Shown: positions 20,376-35,986, counted from the stretch's first letter. The stretch is 64,000 nt of DNA from Candidatus Obscuribacterales bacterium (GCA_020054205.1 JAGVLS010000017.1:1-64000); one strand, 5' to 3'. Notes: generated by a model from the sequence alone, not told the origin. Numbers and translations are program-made.

Positions 20376-21179
20376 TCATTTTGGCAAATGACGATGAAGT
20401 CGCTTTGCCAATTCAACATCTAATTCATGTCCACCTTTAATACTAATAAATCTGGCCTTCCATTCCATAGGGTTAACCCCAGCAAGAGATAAATCCCCAA
20501 TTAAATCTAATAATTTATGACGTACCGGTTCGTCTTCAAAATGAAGTTCTTTACTAAAGCCATCATTTGTTAAGCTTATTTGATCTTCAATACCTAATAA
20601 TTTATGCTCTTGCATAGAACCAAAAGTTCTAGCTTGAGCAATTTCACTTATTTCCATATCAGCGGTCCATGTCTGCCAACGCTTACCAATTGCTTTATGA
20701 TCCCAGTCCATCATATAAGTCATGGAAAAACTATCATCGGCAATAGCAATGAGCGCTCGATCATGTTTTTTTATCATTATCGTATCGTTAAGGATAATAT
20801 GAGATGATTTTTTATTTTGTTGCCAATTGTTTTTTTGAAATAAATCTATCCAGACTTGAGCACTACCATCAGCCAATGGCATTTCCGGTCCATCTACTAT
20901 CACCAATAAATCATCTAAGCCTAAAAGACTAGTAGCTGCTAAAAAATGTTCAACTATACAAAGTCTATTGTTCTCAATACCTAATACAACATTTCTCAGT
21001 GTATTTACCACATAATCATGTTTAGCTGGTATAAGACATGAAGAGTGAGTATCTTTATTTTCCAATTGAAATACAATTCCATGTCCTTTTGGTTTTGGAA
21101 TTATTTCAACAGTAATATTTTTCTTGGAAGTAACTCCAATACCTTTATAAACAATTGAAGATTTATCGATTGTATTCAT
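20376..21179 (-). CDS. lpxC: UDP-3-O-acyl-N-acetylglucosamine deacetylase
   Basis: Zinc enzyme of the committed step of lipid A synthesis, cytosolic. The 267-residue protein is shorter than the Escherichia coli enzyme (305). Seen: VEHFLAA with the first zinc His, DGSAQ, RHKLLDLIGDLSLAG with the second His and zinc Asp, and KGGHELD with the active-site His. The usual N-terminal GLHSG-type motif is replaced by GVTSKK. It lies 9 bp after lpxD and is the third lipid A or outer-membrane gene in a row. Confidence 0.93.
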   Translation of the reverse strand: MNTIDKSSIVYKGIGVTSKKNITVEIIPKPKGHGIVFQLENKDTHSSCLIPAKHDYVVNTLRNVVLGIENNRLCIVEHFLAATSLLGLDDLLVIVDGPEMPLADGSAQVWIDLFQKNNWQQNKKSSHIILNDTIMIKKHDRALIAIADDSFSMTYMMDWDHKAIGKRWQTWTADMEISEIAQARTFGSMQEHKLLGIEDQISLTNDGFSKELHFEDEPVRHKLLDLIGDLSLAGVNPMEWKARFISIKGGHELDVELAKRLHRHLPK

Positions 21180-21188
21180 AGTTGATAG

Positions 21189-22304
21189 CTAGCGAACCAA
21201 TTGTTTTTCATTTAAAGCTTTTTCTAAACTATCAACCTTCTTTTGCAAAGCGCGAAAGTCAGTTAACATTTTAGGCAACTTGCGCACGTGGGCTACTTGG
21301 TTGAAGAAATCACGTGCTGGTTGAGCTGGCACACCACACATTACTTCTTGATCGGCAATATCTTTCATAACTGCAGCTTTGCCTTCCAATATGGCATCTT
21401 TTCCGACGTTAATATGATCTTTAATACCTACTTGCCCAGCTAAAACTGCTCTATCACCAATTACAGAAGAGCCAGCTATACCTGTTTGGGATACGATAAG
21501 CGCTTCTCTGCCGACGCGGACATTGTGTGCAATCATAACTAAATTATCAATCTTTGTGCCTTTGCCAATGATGGTGGCACCCATAGTGGCACGATCTATT
21601 GTGGCATTGGAACCAACTTCAACATCGTCTTCAATAATGACTGTGCCAATGTTTGAGATTTTAAGCAAAGGATTAGGCTCATCAGATAATTCTTTAATGC
21701 CTGCAATTCTAAGTTCCATATTTGATGGACGCTCAGTTACATAACTAAAGCCGTCTGCACCAATACTTGCTCCTTGCTGCATTATTACCCTGTTGCCAAT
21801 TTTTATATAATCAGCAATCATACAGCCTGGATGAAATAGACAATCTAAACCAATTTCAACTTCACCACCTATAGTTACATTGGCCATTATTTTTGTTCTA
21901 TCGCCAATTTTTGTTTTAGGTCCAATTACAACATTTGCTCCAATAGCAACGTCTTTGCCTAATTCACAAGTGGCATCAACAATAGCGCTAGGATGAATTC
22001 CTACTTCAGGCATATATCTTTTGGGAGCAATTGCTGCCAACATTTTTTGCAAAGCAAGTAGTGGTCGCTTTACTGTAATTGCCGGTATATCTGTTTTTAC
22101 AGAATCAGGAATCAAGACAGCTGAAGCTTTACACTTAGTTATTTCAGCAATATATTTTGGATCAAAAAATAAAGCTATATCTCCTTCTTTAGCAGTAAGC
22201 GGAGACAAAGCAACACTCTTTACTTTTACTTGAGCATCTCCTTCTGTTTTACCACCAATCAGAGCTGCTATTTCAGCTAAACTTAGTTCTTTGGGAAGAT
22301 TCAT
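21189..22304 (-). CDS. lpxD: UDP-3-O-acylglucosamine N-acyltransferase
   Basis: Adds the second acyl chain in lipid A synthesis, acting after LpxC. The 371-residue protein has the N-terminal uridine-binding domain (about 1-100), then a left-handed beta-helix of hexapeptide repeats (IGANVVIG, IGDRTKI, IEDDVEVGSN) and the catalytic-His segment MIAHNV at about 255, ending in a C-terminal helix (about 330-370). Length and order fit LpxD. fabZ and lpxA, often next in other genomes, are not here. Confidence 0.95.
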   Translation of the reverse strand: MNLPKELSLAEIAALIGGKTEGDAQVKVKSVALSPLTAKEGDIALFFDPKYIAEITKCKASAVLIPDSVKTDIPAITVKRPLLALQKMLAAIAPKRYMPEVGIHPSAIVDATCELGKDVAIGANVVIGPKTKIGDRTKIMANVTIGGEVEIGLDCLFHPGCMIADYIKIGNRVIMQQGASIGADGFSYVTERPSNMELRIAGIKELSDEPNPLLKISNIGTVIIEDDVEVGSNATIDRATMGATIIGKGTKIDNLVMIAHNVRVGREALIVSQTGIAGSSVIGDRAVLAGQVGIKDHINVGKDAILEGKAAVMKDIADQEVMCGVPAQPARDFFNQVAHVRKLPKMLTDFRALQKKVDSLEKALNEKQLVR

Positions 22305-22339
22305 ATAAATACCTAGCGATAATGTCCTTTTAACTAAGA

Positions 22340-22371
22340 AGAATTAGCTGACAATATTGTCAGCTAATTCT
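22340..22371. repeat. perfect 32-bp palindrome between skp and lpxD
   Basis: The left arm AGAATTAGCTGACAAT (22340-22355) is followed directly by its exact reverse complement (22356-22371) with no spacer. As RNA it would form a stem of about 14 bp with a tiny loop. T-richness after it on the minus strand is weak, so it may be a terminator, an RNA processing site, or a protein-binding operator. Confidence 0.85.
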
Positions 22372-22390
22372 ATACATGTACTCAATTACT

Positions 22391-22939
22391 CTACTTTGTT
22401 GCTGTTGGACGTTGAGTCTTAGCAGCAGTACTAGCTGACAAACGTTTCATTACACCATCTGTCAAATCTACACCACCAGATAAAACTACTGGCATTACAG
22501 CACCACCAAGGTTAAAGCCTTTTGAGAAAACAATGTCTACTTTGTGCAAAGTAGCTTCAGCTTTAATAGCAGAATCAATTTCTGTTTCTAATTGATTTTC
22601 CATGCCTTGCGCTCTAGCTTGAATCTTTTTTAACTCATCGTCAATTTGTGCTTGTAATCGACGTTGAAGTCCTTCTAATTCAGCCGGTGGCTTATTAGCT
22701 TTTTTAGCTTCTTCGTATTGCTTATTGGCATCCTCTACCAATTTTTGCATCTTTTCATCTAACTTTTTTAGCTCATCAGCTGCTTGCTGAGCTTTAGTGT
22801 AACTAGTAACTACTTTGTCTCTATCAACTACTCCAATAGATTTGGTAGCAGCTGTTTGAGCAAAACCAGCTCCACCCAATGTACAAAGAGCTATTGCTGA
22901 ACTTAATAAAGTTACGACAGCCTTATGAGAACTTGCCAT
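22391..22939 (-). CDS. skp: OmpH/Skp-type periplasmic chaperone
   Basis: Periplasmic holdase for outer-membrane proteins. The 182-residue protein has a signal peptide (cleavage near GFAQ), then IGVVDRDKVVTSYTKAQ, which matches the Skp beta-strand start, and a long charged coiled coil (about 55-125) that forms the tentacle, ending with a beta segment VDIVFSKGFNLGG. Its place between bamA and lpxD is the common Skp context. The frame extends to a TTG at 22951, but ATG at 22939 is preceded by GGAGGGG. Confidence 0.88.
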   Translation of the reverse strand: MASSHKAVVTLLSSAIALCTLGGAGFAQTAATKSIGVVDRDKVVTSYTKAQQAADELKKLDEKMQKLVEDANKQYEEAKKANKPPAELEGLQRRLQAQIDDELKKIQARAQGMENQLETEIDSAIKAEATLHKVDIVFSKGFNLGGAVMPVVLSGGVDLTDGVMKRLSASTAAKTQRPTATK

Positions 22940-23025
22940 TGCCCCTCCCAACTTGATTGAATCTAGACTCGAAGCTAAGTTTACACTATAGGCAGTCTGC
23001 TAACTATTAAAGGAAACTGACATTG

Positions 23026-25008
23026 TTAAAACTTGTCACCAAATCCCAAAGTAAATCTAGGTGTAAATTTACCCAAAGCAGTGCTAATAAGAGGCATACC
23101 ATAATCTATCCTAATTAATCCTACATAAGGCAAATTCATTCTCAGCCCAACGCCTACAGCTGCACCCATACTTGCCCTTTGATAAAAGTTATTGACTAAA
23201 CCATTACCATATGAGCGACCGACATCAAAAAATGTCACTGCACGAACATTTTTTTCAACAGCATTGACAAAGGCTCCATATCGAGAAGATTTAGACATCT
23301 TAGGCAATGGTAAACGCATACGCAATTCAGCGCTTGCCATAAGCATACCGGTGCCTGTGCCTAAATCAGAAAATGTACGATAGCCTCTCAGTCCATTCCA
23401 ACCACCCAATCTATACTGAGCAAATTGTGGCATGCCACCAATGCCAGTTCCACCTTGAACATTGAATGCAAGTGTACTGGTTTTACCAACTGGTATAAAT
23501 TTACTGACACTTGCTCCAAGTTTTGCAAAGCTAGCACCATTTATTCCAATTGATGGTCCTGCTGTAACTTTTCCAAAACTTCCTTTTCTTGGATCGAACA
23601 TGCTATCACGCGTATCGTAATATAAAGTAGGACTAAGTGAAAAATAAGTTCCACCTTTAAGTTGTGAATTACGAATCTGTTGAGCAGCCATCTGAGCTGA
23701 TGCTACATCATATGCTTTACCTAATTTAAGTGCTTGTTGGGTAAGAAAACCATTTGGTCCAGTTAAAGTACCAAAATCTTTAAGAGCAGTATTTTCACCT
23801 AATAGTCCTAAGCTATAGCTAAAATGCCCACGCCCTGGACGAGTAAATGTAATATTTGCTCCTAATGTTTTTTGTTGTGATTCATCAATGAGCATGCTGC
23901 CATAATTGCGAGCAAAACCACTTACAGCCATTGAAGTATTAGTGCCACGTATATTAGGTTCTATAAATGATGCTTCAAATTGATAAGTTTTGCTATTAGG
24001 TAAAAACGTAGTGCCAGCATTATTAATCGTATTTGATAGCTGATTGAACATGCCAGAGCCCATCTGAGAATTGAAAGATACAATTTGTCCGCGTCCTCTA
24101 AAATTACTATCTGAAAAACTAAAAGATCCAAAAGGACCAGCTATTGTATCGACACCACCACCCAAGCCAATGGATCCAGTGCGCTTTTCGTCAACTTCAA
24201 CTTTCAATGTATATTTGTCTGGATGATCAGGTGAGGGAGTTAGACTTCGTTTTATATCCTGAAAATAACCATTGCCATATAACTTACGTAAGTCATTAGT
24301 CAACTGACGCTCATTGTATACAGTGCCTGGTTTTATTTTAATAGCATTGCGAATAATAAAATCTTTGGTTTTTTTATTTCCAATAATTTTAACGTCATTA
24401 ATGACACCTTCGTCTATATTGATAGAAACACTGCCATCGGGATCATCTTTTACATCAACAATACGAGCAAGCATAAAACCTTTTTCGTGATAGGCTCGCT
24501 CTACCTTATCAATGGCTTGTGATAATTGAGTTAAGTTTTGTGGTTTGCCTAACTGATCGGCAAAAAGCTGAGATAAATCACCACTGGATAAAACTGTATT
24601 TCCTTGAAAAGCAAATTGAGTCACAGGAGCATTTTCTTGTACTCTAATTTTTAGAAGTACTCCCGATCCACCCATCTCCGGTATTACTTGCAAACTTTTA
24701 TCGTCAAAATAGCCCATGCTATTTACTGCTTTTAAATCTTGCATAACTTGATCGCGATCAAAGCGATCACCACGTCGCGTTTTGACTACACCTAAAATAT
24801 CTTCAGCTGGAACTAATCGATTACCTTCAACAGTGACATTCTCAACTGTTAAATCATTTATATTTTCAGAAATTTCAGCTTTTAATTCTTCTGCTTTGAC
24901 ACTTTGACTAAAAAACAAAGGAGAAATAAATACGATAAGCTGCAAACATACACAAAGTATGCTCACAAAAACTTGGCAATAATTTTTATAAAACTTGCTG
25001 GTAGGCAT
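23026..25008 (-). CDS. bamA: outer-membrane assembly factor BamA (Omp85)
   Basis: Inserts beta-barrel proteins into the outer membrane. The 660-residue protein has a signal peptide (to about SVKA at 39), three POTRA-like domains (about 52-285; NDLTVENVTVEGNRLVPAEDIL starts the first), and a C-terminal 16-strand barrel with the GLRGYR-type loop at GGWNGLRGYRTF and final strand TPRFTLGFGDKF ending in Phe. Three POTRA domains instead of five is the cyanobacterial and related arrangement. It leads the envelope gene run. Confidence 0.94.
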   Translation of the reverse strand: MPTSKFYKNYCQVFVSILCVCLQLIVFISPLFFSQSVKAEELKAEISENINDLTVENVTVEGNRLVPAEDILGVVKTRRGDRFDRDQVMQDLKAVNSMGYFDDKSLQVIPEMGGSGVLLKIRVQENAPVTQFAFQGNTVLSSGDLSQLFADQLGKPQNLTQLSQAIDKVERAYHEKGFMLARIVDVKDDPDGSVSINIDEGVINDVKIIGNKKTKDFIIRNAIKIKPGTVYNERQLTNDLRKLYGNGYFQDIKRSLTPSPDHPDKYTLKVEVDEKRTGSIGLGGGVDTIAGPFGSFSFSDSNFRGRGQIVSFNSQMGSGMFNQLSNTINNAGTTFLPNSKTYQFEASFIEPNIRGTNTSMAVSGFARNYGSMLIDESQQKTLGANITFTRPGRGHFSYSLGLLGENTALKDFGTLTGPNGFLTQQALKLGKAYDVASAQMAAQQIRNSQLKGGTYFSLSPTLYYDTRDSMFDPRKGSFGKVTAGPSIGINGASFAKLGASVSKFIPVGKTSTLAFNVQGGTGIGGMPQFAQYRLGGWNGLRGYRTFSDLGTGTGMLMASAELRMRLPLPKMSKSSRYGAFVNAVEKNVRAVTFFDVGRSYGNGLVNNFYQRASMGAAVGVGLRMNLPYVGLIRIDYGMPLISTALGKFTPRFTLGFGDKF

Positions 25009-25179: not shown

Positions 25180-26679
25180 CTATTCAAACCAGCCAATTGG
25201 TTGTGGATCTAAGTTCAAATTGATTTGTTTAATTTCAGTATAAGCATCCAAACCAAAAGTACCTAATTCACGTCCCCAGCCGCTTTGTTTGTAGCCGCCC
25301 CATGGACATTCAACATAAGTATTGTGATAACCATTTATCCATGTAATACCAGCTTTAATTGCTTTAATTACATTGTAAGCACGAGTTACATCAGATGTGA
25401 AAACAGCACCAGCTAATCCATAAGGAGTATCATTTGCTAATTTAATAGCTTCACTTTCACCTTTGAATTTTTGCACTACAGCTACTGGTCCAAAAATTTC
25501 TTCTTGTACAATGCGCATATTTGGTTTTACGTTGGAGAAAATGGTTGGATTTACAAAATAACCTTCACCATATTTGCCACCTTTAAGCTGCTCTCCACCC
25601 AATTCCAATTTGGCTCCTTCTTTTTGACCAATTTGAATATATTCAAGCACACGCTTCATTTGTGTCTCACTAACTAATGGTCCCATTTCAGTTTCAGAGT
25701 CTAATCCAGGACCTACTCTTATTTTTTTAGCGCGAGCAACAAATTTGCTTACAAAAGTATCGTAAATAGATTCTTCTACTATAAAGCGTGACCCAGCAGA
25801 GCATACTTGCCCGGCATTGCAGAATATAGCAAACAAAGCATAATCAACAGCTGTATCTACATCAAAATCAGAAAATACAACCATTGGTGATTTACCACCA
25901 AGCTCAAGAGTAACTTTTTTCAAATTGCCTAAAGCAGCTTGGGCAACAGCTTTACCAGTTTTAACAGAACCAGTAAAAGCTACTTTATCAACTAAATTAC
26001 TGTGAGCAATTGGTTGTCCAGCTGTTGGCCCATCACCCAATACAATATTTACTACGCCTTGGGGTAATTCTAATTCTTCAAGAATTTTTGCTAAATAAAC
26101 AGCCGTCAGTGGTGTGTATTCACTTGGTTTAAGCACACATGTATTACCGGCAGCCAGTGCTGGTGCCAATTTCCAAGCAGCCATTAATAATGGGTAATTC
26201 CATGGAACTATTTGTCCACAAACTCCAATTGGCTCTCTTACTACAGTAGAAAACGATGGGGCCGGTACATTTACTGCTTGTCCGCTTGGCTTAGTAATAA
26301 GCCCAGCATAATATCTAAAACAATTAGCAGAATCAGCAATATCATATTGTGATTCACGTAATGGCTTGCCACCATTTATAGTTTCAAGCTCTGCCAATTC
26401 AGATGCTTTTTCATCAATTTTGTCTGCTAGTTTAAACAAAAATTGAGCACGCTCAGCTGCTGTTAGTTTTGGCCATGGACCTTCATCAAATGCTTTGCGA
26501 GCAGCTTTAATAGCTTTTTCTACTTGCTCACGTGATGCTTCAGATACTTTGCACAATTCTTTACCAGTAGCAGGACTAAATAAAGTTCGCTCGGAAGCTC
26601 CATCCTCAAATTTTCCATTGATCCATAATTGCCATTTTTGATTTACTTTAACTTTTGGTGCCAATAGAGTTTGACTCAT
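25180..26679 (-). CDS. NAD(P)-dependent aldehyde dehydrogenase
   Basis: Oxidises an aldehyde to the acid. The 499-residue protein is a canonical ALDH: N-terminal oligomerisation strand, VPWNYPLLMAAWKLAPALAAGN cofactor-binding block, FTGSVKTGK, catalytic Glu259 in LELGGKSP and catalytic Cys293 in GQVCSAGSR, EEIFGPV. The overall pattern is closest to betaine-aldehyde or other omega-amino-aldehyde dehydrogenases, but the substrate cannot be read from the sequence. GGAGGA lies close before the ATG. It is a single gene. Confidence 0.93.
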   Translation of the reverse strand: MSQTLLAPKVKVNQKWQLWINGKFEDGASERTLFSPATGKELCKVSEASREQVEKAIKAARKAFDEGPWPKLTAAERAQFLFKLADKIDEKASELAELETINGGKPLRESQYDIADSANCFRYYAGLITKPSGQAVNVPAPSFSTVVREPIGVCGQIVPWNYPLLMAAWKLAPALAAGNTCVLKPSEYTPLTAVYLAKILEELELPQGVVNIVLGDGPTAGQPIAHSNLVDKVAFTGSVKTGKAVAQAALGNLKKVTLELGGKSPMVVFSDFDVDTAVDYALFAIFCNAGQVCSAGSRFIVEESIYDTFVSKFVARAKKIRVGPGLDSETEMGPLVSETQMKRVLEYIQIGQKEGAKLELGGEQLKGGKYGEGYFVNPTIFSNVKPNMRIVQEEIFGPVAVVQKFKGESEAIKLANDTPYGLAGAVFTSDVTRAYNVIKAIKAGITWINGYHNTYVECPWGGYKQSGWGRELGTFGLDAYTEIKQINLNLDPQPIGWFE

Positions 26680-29636: not shown

Positions 29637-31067
29637 CTAGTTTCTGACCAGCTGACCTTCTACAACTTCATTTGCCTGTGGCTCATCACCATCTATATTT
29701 GGAAAACGAACAATTACTTTGGTGCCTTTTCCAGCTTCACTTAATTCAATTTTGGCAGCATGAGCTTCGGCAATTTCCCGTACAATAGCAAGTCCAAGCC
29801 CACTACCAGTTACACGCGAGCCAAGTATTCTGTAAAATCTCTCAAATACTCTTTCTCTTTCGTGTTCAGGAATACCAGGACCATTATCGTCAACAATAAG
29901 TGTTGGACAAAGTTGATTTGCCACCCTGACTGTTACATTACCCCCATCTTGAGTGTATAAGATTGCATTTTCAATCAAATTACAAACAAGATCATGAAGA
30001 CTAGTTGCATCTCCCATGATTGAAACATCATGTCGAGAACCATCAAAGCCTAAATCAATTCCTTTAGCAAGTGCTTGTGAGACTAATTCTCTTGTTGCAT
30101 TGCGAGCTATTAGATTAAGATCTAATTCTTCACGTTTTATTGATTTTAAAGCACTGGGCTCTAGTCTAGCTAGAGCTAGAAGTTGTTGCACAAGCCTTGT
30201 CGCTCTATCGGCACTGGTGCTAATTTGTCTCAATGAATGATGCAAGTCTTTAGGATTATCAACTCGCAAAGCTAATTCAGTTTGTGTTTTTAAACCAGCA
30301 AGTGGAGTTCTCAATTGATGCGCTGCGTTAGCAACAAATCTTTTTTGTGCTTCTCTATCTTCTCGCAAACGTTCAAGCAAGTCATTAATAGCATTTACTA
30401 ACGGTTTTACTTCTTGGGGAGCATCATCTTCAATTACTGGTCGCAAATCGGATGGGCTGCGACTTAAAACAGCATTTTGTAATGTTTTAAGTGGAGCAAG
30501 ACCTCTTGCCACACCAAACCAAACAGCTGCTGCTGCTAGCAAAATCAATAATAATTGCGGTAAAACCACTCCCAATAAAATACTTTGAGTAAGCGCTTCC
30601 CGTCCCAATACAGTTTCAGCTGCTTGAATGACAATATAATGTTTAGAATCAGATGGGATTGGCATTGCAATAGCTACAATTCTAGCTAATCGCTTATTTA
30701 TATAAGCATCACGGAAATCTGGTTCTTCAACAGATATATCATCAAAATCAGGTTTAGGAACTGAAGCATCACCTGATATATACTCTCCTTTTTCAGATAT
30801 GATTTGATAAAACGCCTGATCTTTTTCGTTTTGTTTTAAGATGGCCATAGCAATTGGCGGTAAGTCTAAAATTGGCTTATTGCCATCAAATTGTAATTTG
30901 CTTGCAATAACACGGGCAGAATCTAATAAGCTATCGTCATAAGCACTAGTTGCAAAATCAATTGCTAGAAAATAAGTAATTGCACCAGAGATTAGCCACA
31001 AAGTCATAATTGGTATTAATAACCAACTTAAAAGCTGTTTTCTAATTGATGAAGTAAATGCTTTCAT
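29637..31067 (-). CDS. membrane sensor histidine kinase (QseC/TctE type)
   Basis: A 476-residue two-pass sensor kinase. Seen: membrane helix at about 12-34, a periplasmic region of the 2CSK_N kind (about 36-160), second helix (about 163-185), HAMP-like linker, HisKA with His250 in FVANAAHQLRTPLAG, and HATPase_c with NLIENAILYT, DDNGPGIP, ERFYR and GSGLGLAIV. The N-terminal domain type is common in tricarboxylate and quorum-related kinases, but the signal is unknown. The start overlaps the stop of the response-regulator gene by four bases (ATGA). Confidence 0.93.
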   Translation of the reverse strand: MKAFTSSIRKQLLSWLLIPIMTLWLISGAITYFLAIDFATSAYDDSLLDSARVIASKLQFDGNKPILDLPPIAMAILKQNEKDQAFYQIISEKGEYISGDASVPKPDFDDISVEEPDFRDAYINKRLARIVAIAMPIPSDSKHYIVIQAAETVLGREALTQSILLGVVLPQLLLILLAAAAVWFGVARGLAPLKTLQNAVLSRSPSDLRPVIEDDAPQEVKPLVNAINDLLERLREDREAQKRFVANAAHQLRTPLAGLKTQTELALRVDNPKDLHHSLRQISTSADRATRLVQQLLALARLEPSALKSIKREELDLNLIARNATRELVSQALAKGIDLGFDGSRHDVSIMGDATSLHDLVCNLIENAILYTQDGGNVTVRVANQLCPTLIVDDNGPGIPEHERERVFERFYRILGSRVTGSGLGLAIVREIAEAHAAKIELSEAGKGTKVIVRFPNIDGDEPQANEVVEGQLVRN

Positions 31068-31732
31068 TTATTTTTTTCCAACAAATAACCTAAACCACGG
31101 ATTGTTCGCACACTCAGACCAAAAGGTTCCAGCCGTTTTCTCAATCTATGAATATGAACTTCAATAGCATTGTGGCTAACTTCTTCATCCCATCCATACA
31201 TATGTTCTAGTAATTGTTCTTTACTCACTACACGATTAGGACGTTGCAATAATATCTCAAGTACGGATAATTCTTTTGCCGATAATTCAACTGGTTGGTT
31301 TTCGATATCTAAATGACGATTGATAGTATCAAAACGGATAGGACCATATGAAATTTCAGTTTCAGAGCCATAATTACTGCGTCTAATTAATGCCCGCACA
31401 CGCGCTTCTAATTCTGGCAAATCAAAAGGTTTTGTAATATAGTCATCTGCTCCTAAATTTAAATTGGTAACTCTATCTTCAAGCCCATCACGGGCCGTTA
31501 GAATTAAAACTGGCAATTTTCTGCCACGACCTCTCAATCTTTTTAATACTTCTTGTCCATCAATACCAGGCAAGCCTAAATCAAGAATAACCAAATCAAA
31601 AGGATGAGAAACTAGAGCTTGATCGGCATCATTTCCACTAGTTACTTGATCAACAGCATAACCAAATTGTTTCAATGCTTTAGATATGCCATCTGAAAGC
31701 ACTTCATCATCTTCAGCTAGGAGTATCCGCAT
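31064..31732 (-). CDS. OmpR-family response regulator
   Basis: A 222-residue regulator: receiver domain (about 1-115) with acidic pocket E7/D8/D9, phospho-acceptor Asp51 in LVILDLGLPG, and Lys in TKPF; then a winged-helix DNA-binding domain (about 128-220; VELSAKELSVLEILLQRPNRVVSKEQL). It is the partner of the kinase that starts in its stop codon. The upstream 237-bp space is shared with the divergent aminotransferase operon, which is a candidate target by position only. Confidence 0.95.
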   Translation of the reverse strand: MRILLAEDDEVLSDGISKALKQFGYAVDQVTSGNDADQALVSHPFDLVILDLGLPGIDGQEVLKRLRGRGRKLPVLILTARDGLEDRVTNLNLGADDYITKPFDLPELEARVRALIRRSNYGSETEISYGPIRFDTINRHLDIENQPVELSAKELSVLEILLQRPNRVVSKEQLLEHMYGWDEEVSHNAIEVHIHRLRKRLEPFGLSVRTIRGLGYLLEKNK

Positions 31733-31969: not shown

Positions 31970-33412
31970 ATGAGCACAAATATCACCCAATCGCAATCTC
32001 AAGCAGTTTCTCAATCGGCACAAATAACTGATTTCAGCCAAGCATCGGAAGATGAATTACTAAAAGTTGAATCAGAAGTTTGTTCATATGGCGATACGGT
32101 TCATTATGCTGAAAAACCAAAGTTTTTCACCAATTGTCAAGGAAGTTATTTGTACGATGGACAAAACACTGAATATTTAGATTTGCAAATGTGGTATTCA
32201 GCCGTCAATTTAGGTTATGCCAACGAACGCATAAATAATGCTTTAAAAAATCAAATTGATAATTTGCCACAGCTTGCCTGTCAATACTTACATAAAGAGA
32301 AAGTGTTATTGGCTGAAAAACTTTCAGGAAGTATAAAACGTAGCTTCAACGAAAAAGGGCGAATTCATTTCAATGTTGGTGGTGCCCAAGCAATTGAAGA
32401 TGCATTAAAATTAGTGAGAAAACATACTGGCAAGAGCCGCATGCTGGCCTTTGAAGGTGGCTACCACGGACGTACACTAGGCGCCTCTGCTATCACTTCA
32501 TCATATAGATATAGAGAAGCTTATGGTGAATTTGGTGATCGAGCAGAATTTGTTCCATTCCCTTATTGTTTCCGCTGCCCTTATGGCAAGAAAAAAGAAA
32601 CTTGTGGCATGTATTGCATAGAACAAATTGAAAGAAAATTTGATCATGAATACACTGGTTGGTGGAATCCAAAAACTCAAAAATCAGAATTTGGTGCTTT
32701 CTTTATTGAAGTAATTCAAGGTACAGGTGGATATATTGCTGCACCCAAAGGTTATTTTGAGCGATTAGCAAAAATCTTAAAAGAAAGAGGCATTTTACTA
32801 ATTGACGATGAAATCCAAATGGGTTTTTTCCGCACCGGTAAGCTTTGGGCATTTGAACATATTAATGCCAAGCCAGATGTATTGGTATTTGGCAAAGCAT
32901 TGACAAATGGTTTAAATCCACTTTCTGGAATTTGGGCTAAAGAAGAGCTTATAACTCCTGAAAAATTTGGACCTGGTTCCACACATTCTACCTTTTCTTC
33001 TAATTCATTGGGTACTGCTACTGGTTTAGAAGTAATGAAAATGTTTGAGGAAGGTAATTGGGAAAAAGAAATAACGGAAAAAGGCAATTACTTTTTGGAT
33101 ATCATCAAAAACCTTCAACGTAAACACAAAGAAATAGGTGATGTTGATGGTACAGGTTTAGCATTACGCATGGAGATGTGTGAAGCTGATGGTTATACAG
33201 CAAGTCGACGACTTGCCGACAAGATGTTCCAATTAGGTTTAGACGGCAATTTAAAAGCCAATGGTAAAACGATGGGGTTAATTTTAGATATTGGTGGTTA
33301 TTACAAAAACGTAGTTACCTTAGCTCCATCTTTAACCATAACTAAAGCCGAGATGGACCAAGCACATGATCTCCTTGATTTAGTTATTACTCAATCGAAA
33401 GCTGAGCTATAA
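31970..33412 (+). CDS. class III PLP-dependent aminotransferase
   Basis: A 480-residue enzyme of the 4-aminobutyrate/acetylornithine aminotransferase group. Seen: DLQMWYSAVNLGY, NVGGAQAIEDALKLVRKHTG, EGGYHGRTLGA, LLIDDEIQMGFFRTGK with the PLP-ring Asp, and the PLP Lys309 in FGKALTNG. A Cys cluster (Cys200, 203, 212, 216) in an inserted loop, CFRCPYGKKKETCGMYC, is like that of GabT-group enzymes. The substrate is unknown. GAGG stands five bases before the ATG. It opens a four-gene operon with a HAD phosphatase, a hydrolase and a small secreted protein. Confidence 0.9.
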   Translation: MSTNITQSQSQAVSQSAQITDFSQASEDELLKVESEVCSYGDTVHYAEKPKFFTNCQGSYLYDGQNTEYLDLQMWYSAVNLGYANERINNALKNQIDNLPQLACQYLHKEKVLLAEKLSGSIKRSFNEKGRIHFNVGGAQAIEDALKLVRKHTGKSRMLAFEGGYHGRTLGASAITSSYRYREAYGEFGDRAEFVPFPYCFRCPYGKKKETCGMYCIEQIERKFDHEYTGWWNPKTQKSEFGAFFIEVIQGTGGYIAAPKGYFERLAKILKERGILLIDDEIQMGFFRTGKLWAFEHINAKPDVLVFGKALTNGLNPLSGIWAKEELITPEKFGPGSTHSTFSSNSLGTATGLEVMKMFEEGNWEKEITEKGNYFLDIIKNLQRKHKEIGDVDGTGLALRMEMCEADGYTASRRLADKMFQLGLDGNLKANGKTMGLILDIGGYYKNVVTLAPSLTITKAEMDQAHDLLDLVITQSKAEL

Positions 33413-33414
33413 GC

Positions 33415-34128
33415 ATGAAAAGAAAATTGCACATATTCTGTGATTTTGATGGCACTATAACAAAAGGCGACACAACAGATTTTCTATTGGAAGAATTAGC
33501 AGATCCCGCCTGGAGAGATGTAGAAAAAGAATGGGAAGCTGGAAAAATTGGCTCAAAAGAATGTATGCAAAAACAAGTCCCATTGATTCGTGGCGGCACG
33601 GAAGCTGTAATTGCAGCTTTGAAGTCTGTCAAAGTTGAACAAAGTTTTGCTCCATTTGCTAATTGGTGCAGACAAAAACAAATACCACTCACAATAGTAA
33701 GCGATGGAATTGATTTTGTTATTAGGCATATTTTGTCTCGCGAAGAAATTCTAGTAAATGGCATTATTGCTAATCATTTGAGTGAAAATGAATTTGGTTA
33801 TTTAAGCCTCTCTTCTCCTAAGCAACCTGGTTATGGTGCCAGCTGCAGCTCTGGTGTGTGCAAGTGCCAAGTGCTAAGCGCTGAGGTAAGCAATCCAGTT
33901 AAAGTTGTAATAGGTGACGGACGTAGTGATTTTTGTTGGGCTCCAGAAGCTGATATATTATTTGCAAAATCAAAGTTATATAGTTATTGCCAAACAAATA
34001 ATATTGCTTGTCGTTCGTTTGCTAATTTCTCCGATATAAGAATGGCACTTGAAGAAATACTTGTTCCTCAAACAGCACAAGAAATTGCTCCTCAATTTGT
34101 ACAAGAATTTCCTGCCTGGGCTTCTTAA
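33415..34128 (+). CDS. MtnX-like HAD phosphatase
   Basis: A 237-residue haloacid-dehalogenase superfamily phosphatase of subclass IB. Asp10 and Asp12 in FCDFDGTI are the nucleophile and acid-base. TIVSDGI gives motif II, and IGDGRSDFCWA motif IV. It resembles MtnX and related phosphatases, but there is no methionine-salvage gene nearby and the Cys run GASCSSGVCKC is a family feature. The start is two bases after the aminotransferase stop, so translation is coupled, and both probably act in one pathway. Confidence 0.85.
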   Translation: MKRKLHIFCDFDGTITKGDTTDFLLEELADPAWRDVEKEWEAGKIGSKECMQKQVPLIRGGTEAVIAALKSVKVEQSFAPFANWCRQKQIPLTIVSDGIDFVIRHILSREEILVNGIIANHLSENEFGYLSLSSPKQPGYGASCSSGVCKCQVLSAEVSNPVKVVIGDGRSDFCWAPEADILFAKSKLYSYCQTNNIACRSFANFSDIRMALEEILVPQTAQEIAPQFVQEFPAWAS

Positions 34129-34143
34129 TTAAATCCGATCAAT

Positions 34144-35595
34144 ATGCATAATTATAATTCTTCTAGCGAATCAGACTTTCAAAATCGCAAAAATCATATT
34201 GGAATATTGCTTTTGCATGGGCTAACTGGCATGCCTTCAGAAATGCGTCCTGTCGAAAAACATTTTCGTCAATTAGGCTATATCGTATCTGCCCCTGTAT
34301 TAGCTGGACATGGAAGTACTAACGATGATTTGCTTAATTGCAAATGGCAAGATTGGCTTTCTGGAGTTTTGCAAGCACGAGACGAGTTATTAGCACAATG
34401 CGAAAAGATAATTATATGTGGACTTTCTATGGGTGCATCACTTGCCACTTTAATTGCCAATGATGAGCGCGTGATAGGCTTAATTTTATTATCTCCTACA
34501 CTTGCCTATGATGGTTCAGGAATTAATAGTCTTCCTAGCCAACGTCATATAAGAAGTCGCATTATACAAAGTATATTGCATCTTACATGCAGCACCTTTC
34601 CGCTTGTAGGCAAGATTTGTTATTGGACAGAAAGTCCACCTTATGGACTACAAGATGAAAGACTACAAAGACAAATAACCAAAGCAATCGAAGCGGCTAA
34701 ACGTGGTGAAAGTAACGAATTTGGCTTATTTAGAACATATTTCACATCCTTACATCAAATGAATTATCTATCCGATGAATTTAGAGCAAAAGCAAAATAT
34801 GTAAAATGTCCAGCGCTCATTATTCATAGTTTAGAAGATACAATTGCCACCATATTTAATGCCACAGAAACTTATGCCAAACTTGGCACAAAAGATAAAT
34901 GTCTAACTTTTTTAACTGGTTGCGATCATGTTATGACATTAGATTTGAAGCGCAAACAAGTGATTAATATAATTGATAATTTTACTCAGCGCGTTGTAAG
35001 TGGCAAAAAAAATAATGAACTAAAACCTGCTGATAACAAACCTTTTTTAACTGTAACTGTCGAACCATTGGTTGAATTCAACGAAACTTTTCATCAATTA
35101 TTTCCGCATGAATCACAATCAGCTAAATTGACTGAATACATGCACAAACTTGGTCCTGAATTTGTAGACTTCCACAGTATTATTGTAAAAAACAACAATA
35201 CTCCCATAATATTATTGCCTACCTTCTTAAGTATAGGCAGACTAAGTAATTCATGGTCAGACTTTGTTGAAAAATCAGCACTTATATTTGGCACACCAGT
35301 CAGATTACTAGCTCGTATAAATTTATTTGGTATTGGCATTACTGAAAAAGAATTGGGTATAGTCGGCATAAGTAATGCAATTGATGCTAATCAAAAAAAT
35401 CAAGCATGGCAATTGTGTTTGAAAGTAACAAAAGCTCTTTCTAATTCGCTTAGAGCAAAAATTGTGTTTTTAAAAGACTTGAATGCAAGCAATTTGGATA
35501 AAATTAAAAGTCCACATTCTTTGCCTATTATAAAAAAACAAGCAAAAGTAGTAAATATAAAACGACTAGAAAAACTTCAAACAAATCGAAAATAA
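34144..35595 (+). CDS. lipase-like alpha/beta hydrolase fused to an acyltransferase-like domain
   Basis: A 483-residue two-part protein without signal peptide. Part one (about 15-280) is a carboxylesterase/monoacylglycerol-lipase fold: oxyanion HGLTG at 25-29, nucleophile Ser95 in GLSMG, an acid in HSLEDTIA and His in GCDHVMT. Part two (about 300-465), with VEFNETFHQLFP, PIILLPTFLS and KIVFLKDLNASN, looks like the first half of a GNAT/FemAB-like acyltransferase family known near such genes, but stops where the second half should begin. The assignment of part two is tentative. It follows the HAD gene by 15 bp. Confidence 0.7.
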   Translation: MHNYNSSSESDFQNRKNHIGILLLHGLTGMPSEMRPVEKHFRQLGYIVSAPVLAGHGSTNDDLLNCKWQDWLSGVLQARDELLAQCEKIIICGLSMGASLATLIANDERVIGLILLSPTLAYDGSGINSLPSQRHIRSRIIQSILHLTCSTFPLVGKICYWTESPPYGLQDERLQRQITKAIEAAKRGESNEFGLFRTYFTSLHQMNYLSDEFRAKAKYVKCPALIIHSLEDTIATIFNATETYAKLGTKDKCLTFLTGCDHVMTLDLKRKQVINIIDNFTQRVVSGKKNNELKPADNKPFLTVTVEPLVEFNETFHQLFPHESQSAKLTEYMHKLGPEFVDFHSIIVKNNNTPIILLPTFLSIGRLSNSWSDFVEKSALIFGTPVRLLARINLFGIGITEKELGIVGISNAIDANQKNQAWQLCLKVTKALSNSLRAKIVFLKDLNASNLDKIKSPHSLPIIKKQAKVVNIKRLEKLQTNRK

Positions 35596-35611
35596 ATTGA
35601 GGTATTTATAA

Positions 35612-35986
35612 ATGGCTTACAAGATTTTCTTTGTCACAATCATAAGTGTTTTTGTGATGAATTTATCTCTTAGCTTAGCAAATGAATTTAAGCGCGAAGA
35701 AATAATGGTAATAAATCTAAATCACGGGGAAAATTCCAGCGGCTCACTTATCGTCAATTCACTAAAAGAAACACGCAAAATGACAAAAGGTCTTGATAAA
35801 GCATTAAGACAAATAGAACAAGTAAATAAAAACTATGCTAAATCTAAAGGACACCCAGACAATAATTATTTGGAAACAAATAATTTGAAAGAAGCATTAG
35901 AAACAGCAAAGCTCTTAGAAAAACAATTACAAGAATCCTTGACCGAATTAAAAGCATCAATACAACAAGCACTAATTAGCAATTAG
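35612..35986 (+). CDS. small secreted coiled-coil protein
   Basis: A 124-residue protein with a signal peptide (cleavage near SLA-NEF) and a helical mature part likely to form a coiled coil (about 50-120; KGLDKALRQIEQVNKNY and ETAKLLEKQLQESLTELKASIQQ). I do not recognise it. It ends the aminotransferase operon, 16 bp after the hydrolase, and its stop touches the stop of the convergent gene (35986/35987). Confidence 0.6.
   Translation: MAYKIFFVTIISVFVMNLSLSLANEFKREEIMVINLNHGENSSGSLIVNSLKETRKMTKGLDKALRQIEQVNKNYAKSKGHPDNNYLETNNLKEALETAKLLEKQLQESLTELKASIQQALISN

Follow-up and report, generated by a model that had tools for sequence, protein, structure and literature searches.

Three adjacent genes in a 64,000-nucleotide stretch of DNA from Candidatus Obscuribacterales bacterium (GCA_020054205.1, JAGVLS010000017.1:1-64000; the whole stretch is hereafter called the window) are confirmed as a real functional unit. 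They encode a class-III pyridoxal phosphate (PLP)-dependent aminotransferase (AT), an MtnX-like phosphatase (HAD), and an alpha/beta hydrolase fused to half of a transferase, and their association is above chance and recurs across phyla. The unit also exceeds the four-gene operon that an earlier note on this DNA had proposed, in that it includes two-component regulators, a Fem/GNAT-type transferase and a pair of small transporters; at other loci, an arginase-fold enzyme is often present as well. We propose, with a probability of about 0.42, that this locus encodes, in genes 1-3, one half of a conserved biosynthetic module that spreads horizontally and in which an amine may be made, dephosphorylated, coupled and translocated. 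The tight same-strand layout described in the earlier note was recovered exactly, with four open reading frames separated by 2, 15 and 16 bp (the region within gene 3 that matches the transferase is listed separately):

31970-33412, plus strand: gene 1, class-III PLP enzyme with aminotransferase fold (Pfam PF00202, Aminotran_3, E 3.6e-75)
33415-34128, plus strand: gene 2, MtnX-like HAD-IB phosphatase (TIGR01489, 97.7 bits, cut-off 81.55)
34144-35595, plus strand: gene 3, alpha/beta hydrolase (residues 1 to ~290; PF12146, Hydrolase_4) and N-terminal half of a Fem/GNAT-type transferase
35083-35508, plus strand: half-transferase region of gene 3, residues 314-455 (profile positions 22-163 of 383, hmmsearch E 3.4e-13)
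35612-35986, plus strand: gene 4, short protein, hydrophobic at its N-terminus, without a Pfam or NCBIfam family

Of the 98 AT loci with at least 2.5 kb of flank on each side, 86 have HAD on the same strand as AT and no more than 300 bp away, and in 73 the hydrolase lies within 1.6 kb of AT. Conserved AT-HAD-hydrolase loci span Vampirovibrionia-like cyanobacterial relatives, Pseudomonadota and others (the labels Vampirovibrionia-, Obscuribacterales- and Gastranaerophilales-like are inferred partly from kinship), and the carriers include gut- and soil-dwelling relatives of cyanobacteria as well as Pseudomonas and Rhizobium. AT genes located on plasmids of Rhizobium, Agrobacterium, Sinorhizobium and Xanthomonas encode products that are 57-60% identical, with HAD adjoining and the hydrolase nearby. 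A scan of a genome collection yielded at least 587 AT relatives; among the best 80 loci, many of them on contigs ending early, HAD and the hydrolase were each present in 72. Among 40 relatives, every genome with AT has HAD, mostly directly downstream of AT. Within the window's order, HAD was found in 17/17 genomes with AT vs 1/10 without it, and the hydrolase in 16/17 vs 1/10; these genome counts ignore relatedness, and synteny nonetheless crosses phyla. Co-occurrence of AT and HAD, which the earlier note had suggested checking, was thus evident at the level of both loci and genomes, and independent occurrence in most relatives, which would have spoken against a system, was not seen. The conservation of this linkage between such distant lineages, non-photosynthetic relatives of cyanobacteria among them, suggests that the product of the module is probably under selection.

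The order of the genes varies to some extent. Gastranaerophilales-like loci usually have HAD, AT and the hydrolase, followed by a 110-residue membrane protein that has no Pfam match and apparently a four-helix topology, and HAD and the hydrolase are fused in one protein in one genome (G140). A second HAD that seemed to be present in Gastranaerophilales-like loci is a clustering artefact, as Pfam identifies it as the hydrolase. At the locus itself, a scan for promoters and terminators remained at chance level and supports neither way, and no Rfam match was detected. The small secreted protein encoded by gene 4, which had been taken as the fourth member of the operon, does not belong to the system: homologues occur in nearly all genomes of the window's family at unlinked places, including all ten family genomes that lack AT. 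Genes 1-3 of the proposed operon stand, whereas the adjacency of gene 4 is only local.

AT belongs to the class-III PLP aminotransferase superfamily based on its Aminotran_3 domain and the PLP lysine Lys309, which, like Asp280, is invariant across 119 orthologues. Thr450 is likewise found in 119/119 orthologues, at a position where the aligned homologues 9wqz and 7vno have Arg, which we take to be the substrate-carboxylate contact in gamma-aminobutyric acid (GABA) and ornithine aminotransferases. The loss of this Arg points to a substrate or donor that does not make the customary carboxylate contact. Because Thr450 replaces Arg and none of 25 listed equivalog models reached its cut-off (best 268 vs 552 bits), AT could not be assigned to the 2-oxoglutarate-dependent omega, ornithine or GABA aminotransferases. 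It shares the fold type, PLP lysine and aspartate with an Ala/Ser racemase (9wqz, 178 bits) and a 454-residue GABA-AT-like protein (7vno, 157 bits), but differs from class-III aminotransferases and racemases in that all orthologues have Thr where these carry the conserved Arg, and in lacking an equivalog match. An insertion carries Cys200, Cys203, Cys212 and Cys216, which the earlier note had named together with the enzyme. The first three are present in 31/31 sequences from the window and the Obscuribacterales-like and Gastranaerophilales-like groups but in only 21-22 of 88 others, and Cys216 is present in nearly all of the 119 orthologues; such a patchy distribution rules out the cluster as a hallmark of the system.

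HAD is placed in the MtnX-like HAD-IB subfamily by its TIGR01489 score and by conserved HAD motifs, and residues D10, D12, S96, K150, D168 and D172 as well as a C149-K-C151 signature are invariant in about 110 orthologues. The nearest solved structure is 2fea (MtnX, 2-hydroxy-3-keto-5-methylthiopentenyl-1-phosphate phosphatase), with which HAD shares the HAD-IB fold, catalytic motifs and subfamily model. Unlike MtnX, it fell short of both methionine-salvage equivalog cut-offs (TIGR03333, 88.2 vs 303.2 bits; NF007103, 105.4 vs 292 bits), contains the invariant C-K-C, and is partnered by a class-III PLP enzyme rather than by mtn genes. The HAD matches at two loci (L041 in G019 and L042 in G010) each contain one in-frame stop (TAG and TGA, respectively), which may reflect either an error in sequencing or gene decay.

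The hydrolase part of gene 3 is monoacylglycerol lipase-like, having a Ser95-Asp232-His262 triad. Asp and His are retained in 104/104 relatives, and the nucleophilic residue varies: 76 have Ser and 28 have Cys, the Cys forms comprising every one of the 14 Gastranaerophilales-like copies, a rhizobial group and others; a Cys nucleophile would be in keeping with the transfer of an acyl group instead of simple hydrolysis. The triad and the motifs in residues 1-290 resemble those of thermostable monoacylglycerol lipase and Est30-type carboxylesterases, from which the protein differs in the Cys form, the fusion to a half-transferase and the synteny with AT-HAD. The C-terminal extension also matches the transferase of a relative (G019; tblastn E 1.3e-12) and lacks the catalytic C-terminal half of that enzyme. 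An AlphaFold single-sequence model of the fused protein had a predicted local distance difference test (pLDDT) score of 37 and was not used.

A full-length acyltransferase-type partner, which the earlier note had recommended seeking in relatives, was found both there and in the window's own genome, where a Fem/GNAT-type transferase gene lies on a separate contig (G000:C15) followed by two small transporter genes. Within the window's order, this transferase was present in 17/17 genomes with AT vs 1/10 without it. In relatives whose hydrolase lies away from AT-HAD, the hydrolase mostly adjoins the transferase, together with the matching type of response regulator and kinase, and these loci often contain two small transporters and a 3-hydroxyacyl-CoA dehydrogenase (3HCDH). 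PF04339 (FemAB_like) and PF13480 scored above cut-off in relatives. The orthologue from P. putida was modelled with a pLDDT of 89 and is predicted to have the tandem-GNAT Fem fold, with Foldseek matches to Sbb17/Sba18, MprF, A-PGS and FemX (E 1e-12 to 1e-10). A search of the transferase profile against the PDB returned no chain at E<=0.1. The first small transporter was best matched in NCBIfam by ArnF and then ArnE, both far under the cut-offs for membership (NF002816, 40.5 vs 99 bits; NF011625, 36.1 vs 92 bits).

Two regulatory genes precede the operon in the window:

31064-31732, minus strand: OmpR-type response regulator (PF00072 and PF00486), divergent from the operon
29637-31067, minus strand: sensor histidine kinase with a 2CSK_N domain (PF08521, HisKA, HATPase_c)

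The response regulator type recurs beside either the AT-HAD or the hydrolase-transferase locus in relatives, and a homologue of the kinase (32% identity) is located immediately upstream of the Rhizobium cluster. Of the best 80 wider loci (drawn from the at least 587 AT relatives), 42 have an arginase-fold gene; of the 40 genomes searched only one has it, and the window genome does not, so that such an enzyme was ruled out for the window's system. A Bartonella sp. plasmid (L137) carries an AT-transferase-arginase variant beside MBOAT and AlgX-like SGNH genes, with no HAD or hydrolase nearby.

In the AT tree, the window sequence groups with Obscuribacterales-like sequences (support 99) and the Gastranaerophilales-like sequences form their own group, whereas the copy on a Planktothrix plasmid nests inside Pseudomonadota and thus looks acquired. 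Both long retention and horizontal transfer have shaped the history of AT, as judged from these sequences. In plasmid p3 of the photosynthetic cyanobacterium Planktothrix rubescens (L116/L141, also G289), HAD-AT lies beside genes for a PhyH oxygenase, an SDR-like protein and DUF6309. Since the window's genome lacks photosystem reaction-centre genes and an AT identical to that of Planktothrix plasmid p3 occurs in another genome from this phylum, we consider the host to be a non-photosynthetic member of the Cyanobacteriota.

The pathway that we propose follows the logic of gene content and conservation. The PLP enzyme would aminate a small keto or aldehyde compound that bears a phosphate, or remodel a C-N bond in some other way, and HAD would take off the phosphate to leave an amine or amino alcohol in free form. 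This product might then be joined to an acyl or aminoacyl moiety by the Fem/MprF-like transferase, the hydrolase could transfer or edit the resulting ester or amide via an acyl-enzyme on Ser or Cys, and the pair of small transporters may flip or export the product, with the whole module putatively under control of the OmpR/2CSK_N two-component pair. Overall, it would be a split multi-gene counterpart of an MprF-plus-hydrolase or Arn-type amine decoration system with its own amine supply. A role in the envelope or its lipids is plausible, and lipid-type genes near various copies, namely desaturase, cyclopropane fatty acid (CFA) synthase, ketosynthase (KS), acyl carrier protein (ACP) and 3HCDH, favour an envelope lipid. 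A bolder reading, which we consider unlikely, is that this undescribed mobile system supplies an amine headgroup of its own and uses a split, MprF-like set of transferase, flippase and hydrolase for its attachment and translocation. The product would then belong to a novel class of membrane lipids decorated with amines, made by Obscuribacterales-like bacteria, Pseudomonas and rhizobia, and Gastranaerophilales-like lineages would have a reduced version.

Several observations weigh against the proposed module. The transferase is absent from Gastranaerophilales-like genomes and from G140; as most of the former and G140 keep HAD-AT-hydrolase without it, it is not essential to the core trio. Bartonella and Pigmentiphaga have AT copies without HAD and the hydrolase nearby. 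The similarity in tandem-GNAT fold, at 10-14% identity, fits an aminoacyl-tRNA and an acyl-CoA donor equally, and AcvB, a component of the lpiA-acvB system discussed below, is a periplasmic enzyme, whereas the hydrolase of gene 3 has no obvious signal peptide. In addition, the genomes behind the co-occurrence counts are phylogenetically non-independent, and the assigned substrates and products are putative.

Alternatively, the genes might form a specialised-metabolite cluster for a secreted small molecule. An amino-sugar- or amino-polyol-like block would come from AT and HAD, the Fem/GNAT enzyme would add either an amino acid or an acyl group to it, and the hydrolase would serve as a thioesterase for off-loading or trans-acylation. 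The top fold matches of the transferase, Sbb17/Sba18, are streptothrisamine peptide synthases; copies in Agrobacterium and Xanthomonas are flanked by ABC/HlyD/TolC exporters, and some copies have KS/ACP and DegT aminotransferase genes nearby. These exporters and fold matches, together with the carriage on plasmids, favour a secreted molecule, and the Cys nucleophile in 28/104 hydrolases and the nesting of the Planktothrix copy within Pseudomonadota are also in line with it. Two cyanobacterial AT copies (L127 in G110 and L128 in G206; 41-42% identical) have glucokinase-like, HAD, zinc alcohol dehydrogenase and nucleotidyltransferase-like genes as neighbours, surroundings reminiscent of aminocyclitol or amino-sugar clusters. 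On the other hand, the window operon has no large exporter, and the regular partner-linked presence in the window's family and the two-component control look more like envelope physiology, so that we regard this explanation as possible, though on the unlikely side. A specific form of the proposed module, in which AT converts a triose phosphate to an amino-alcohol phosphate, HAD dephosphorylates the latter and the GNAT enzyme and hydrolase N- or O-acylate it to give an N-acyl amino-alcohol lipid (e.g., of serinol or ethanolamine type), appears quite improbable: AT together with a HAD-IB (phosphoserine-phosphatase-like) enzyme is the combination expected for making an amino alcohol out of a phosphate ester, and desaturase, CFA synthase and 3HCDH are among the neighbours, but the particular substrate is a guess. 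That the genes serve ordinary central metabolism, be it methionine salvage or the turnover of ornithine/polyamines or GABA, and share an operon only incidentally is very improbable and already disfavoured, since the MtnX-like and class-III affiliations of HAD and AT and the arginase-fold gene of the wider loci are countered by the widely missed MtnX equivalogs, the low best AT model score, the loss of the carboxylate Arg in every orthologue and the near absence of the arginase-fold gene from the 40 genomes.

Elsewhere in the window, genes for LpxC-like, LpxD, BamA-like and small Skp-like proteins (the last without a family match) lie on the opposite strand at 20376-25008, ~7-11 kb upstream; because of the LpxC-, LpxD- and BamA-like proteins, the cell probably has an outer membrane (diderm) and lipid A genes. 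An aldehyde dehydrogenase at 25180-26679 is nearest to betaine-aldehyde dehydrogenase (606 bits, slightly below the cut-off of 669), and no link between it and the operon was shown.

If the proposed module is correct, it would offer a genetically tractable route, in Pseudomonas and Rhizobium, to a membrane lipid or secreted amine that is new, and would give a function to proteins annotated only as 'MtnX-like phosphatase', 'class III-fold aminotransferase' or 'GNAT family'. In agreement with the earlier note's view that no known pathway fits, we found no published description of this gene set in the open-access literature, and subscription papers could hold one. The literature search also brought up a Brucella protein with a GNAT domain (PMC8488576). 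The tandem small membrane proteins, with their ArnF and ArnE matches, recall the ArnE/ArnF aminoarabinose flippase; however, the scores are far under the cut-offs and no other arn genes were seen beside the copies examined. Precedents exist for pairing a transferase with an alpha/beta hydrolase, as in the lpiA-acvB operon (PMC13197417), and for combining a synthase with a flippase, as in MprF (PMC8131360). The module resembles these and the A-PGS and FemX enzymes in the fold of the partner transferase, the transferase-hydrolase pairing and the putative separate flipping function. It differs from all of them in that the transferase has no sequence-level match to solved structures and no fused membrane domain, and that paired small transporters and the additional AT and HAD are present. 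What would be new in comparison with lpiA-acvB and MprF is the dedicated amine supply combined with a split architecture.

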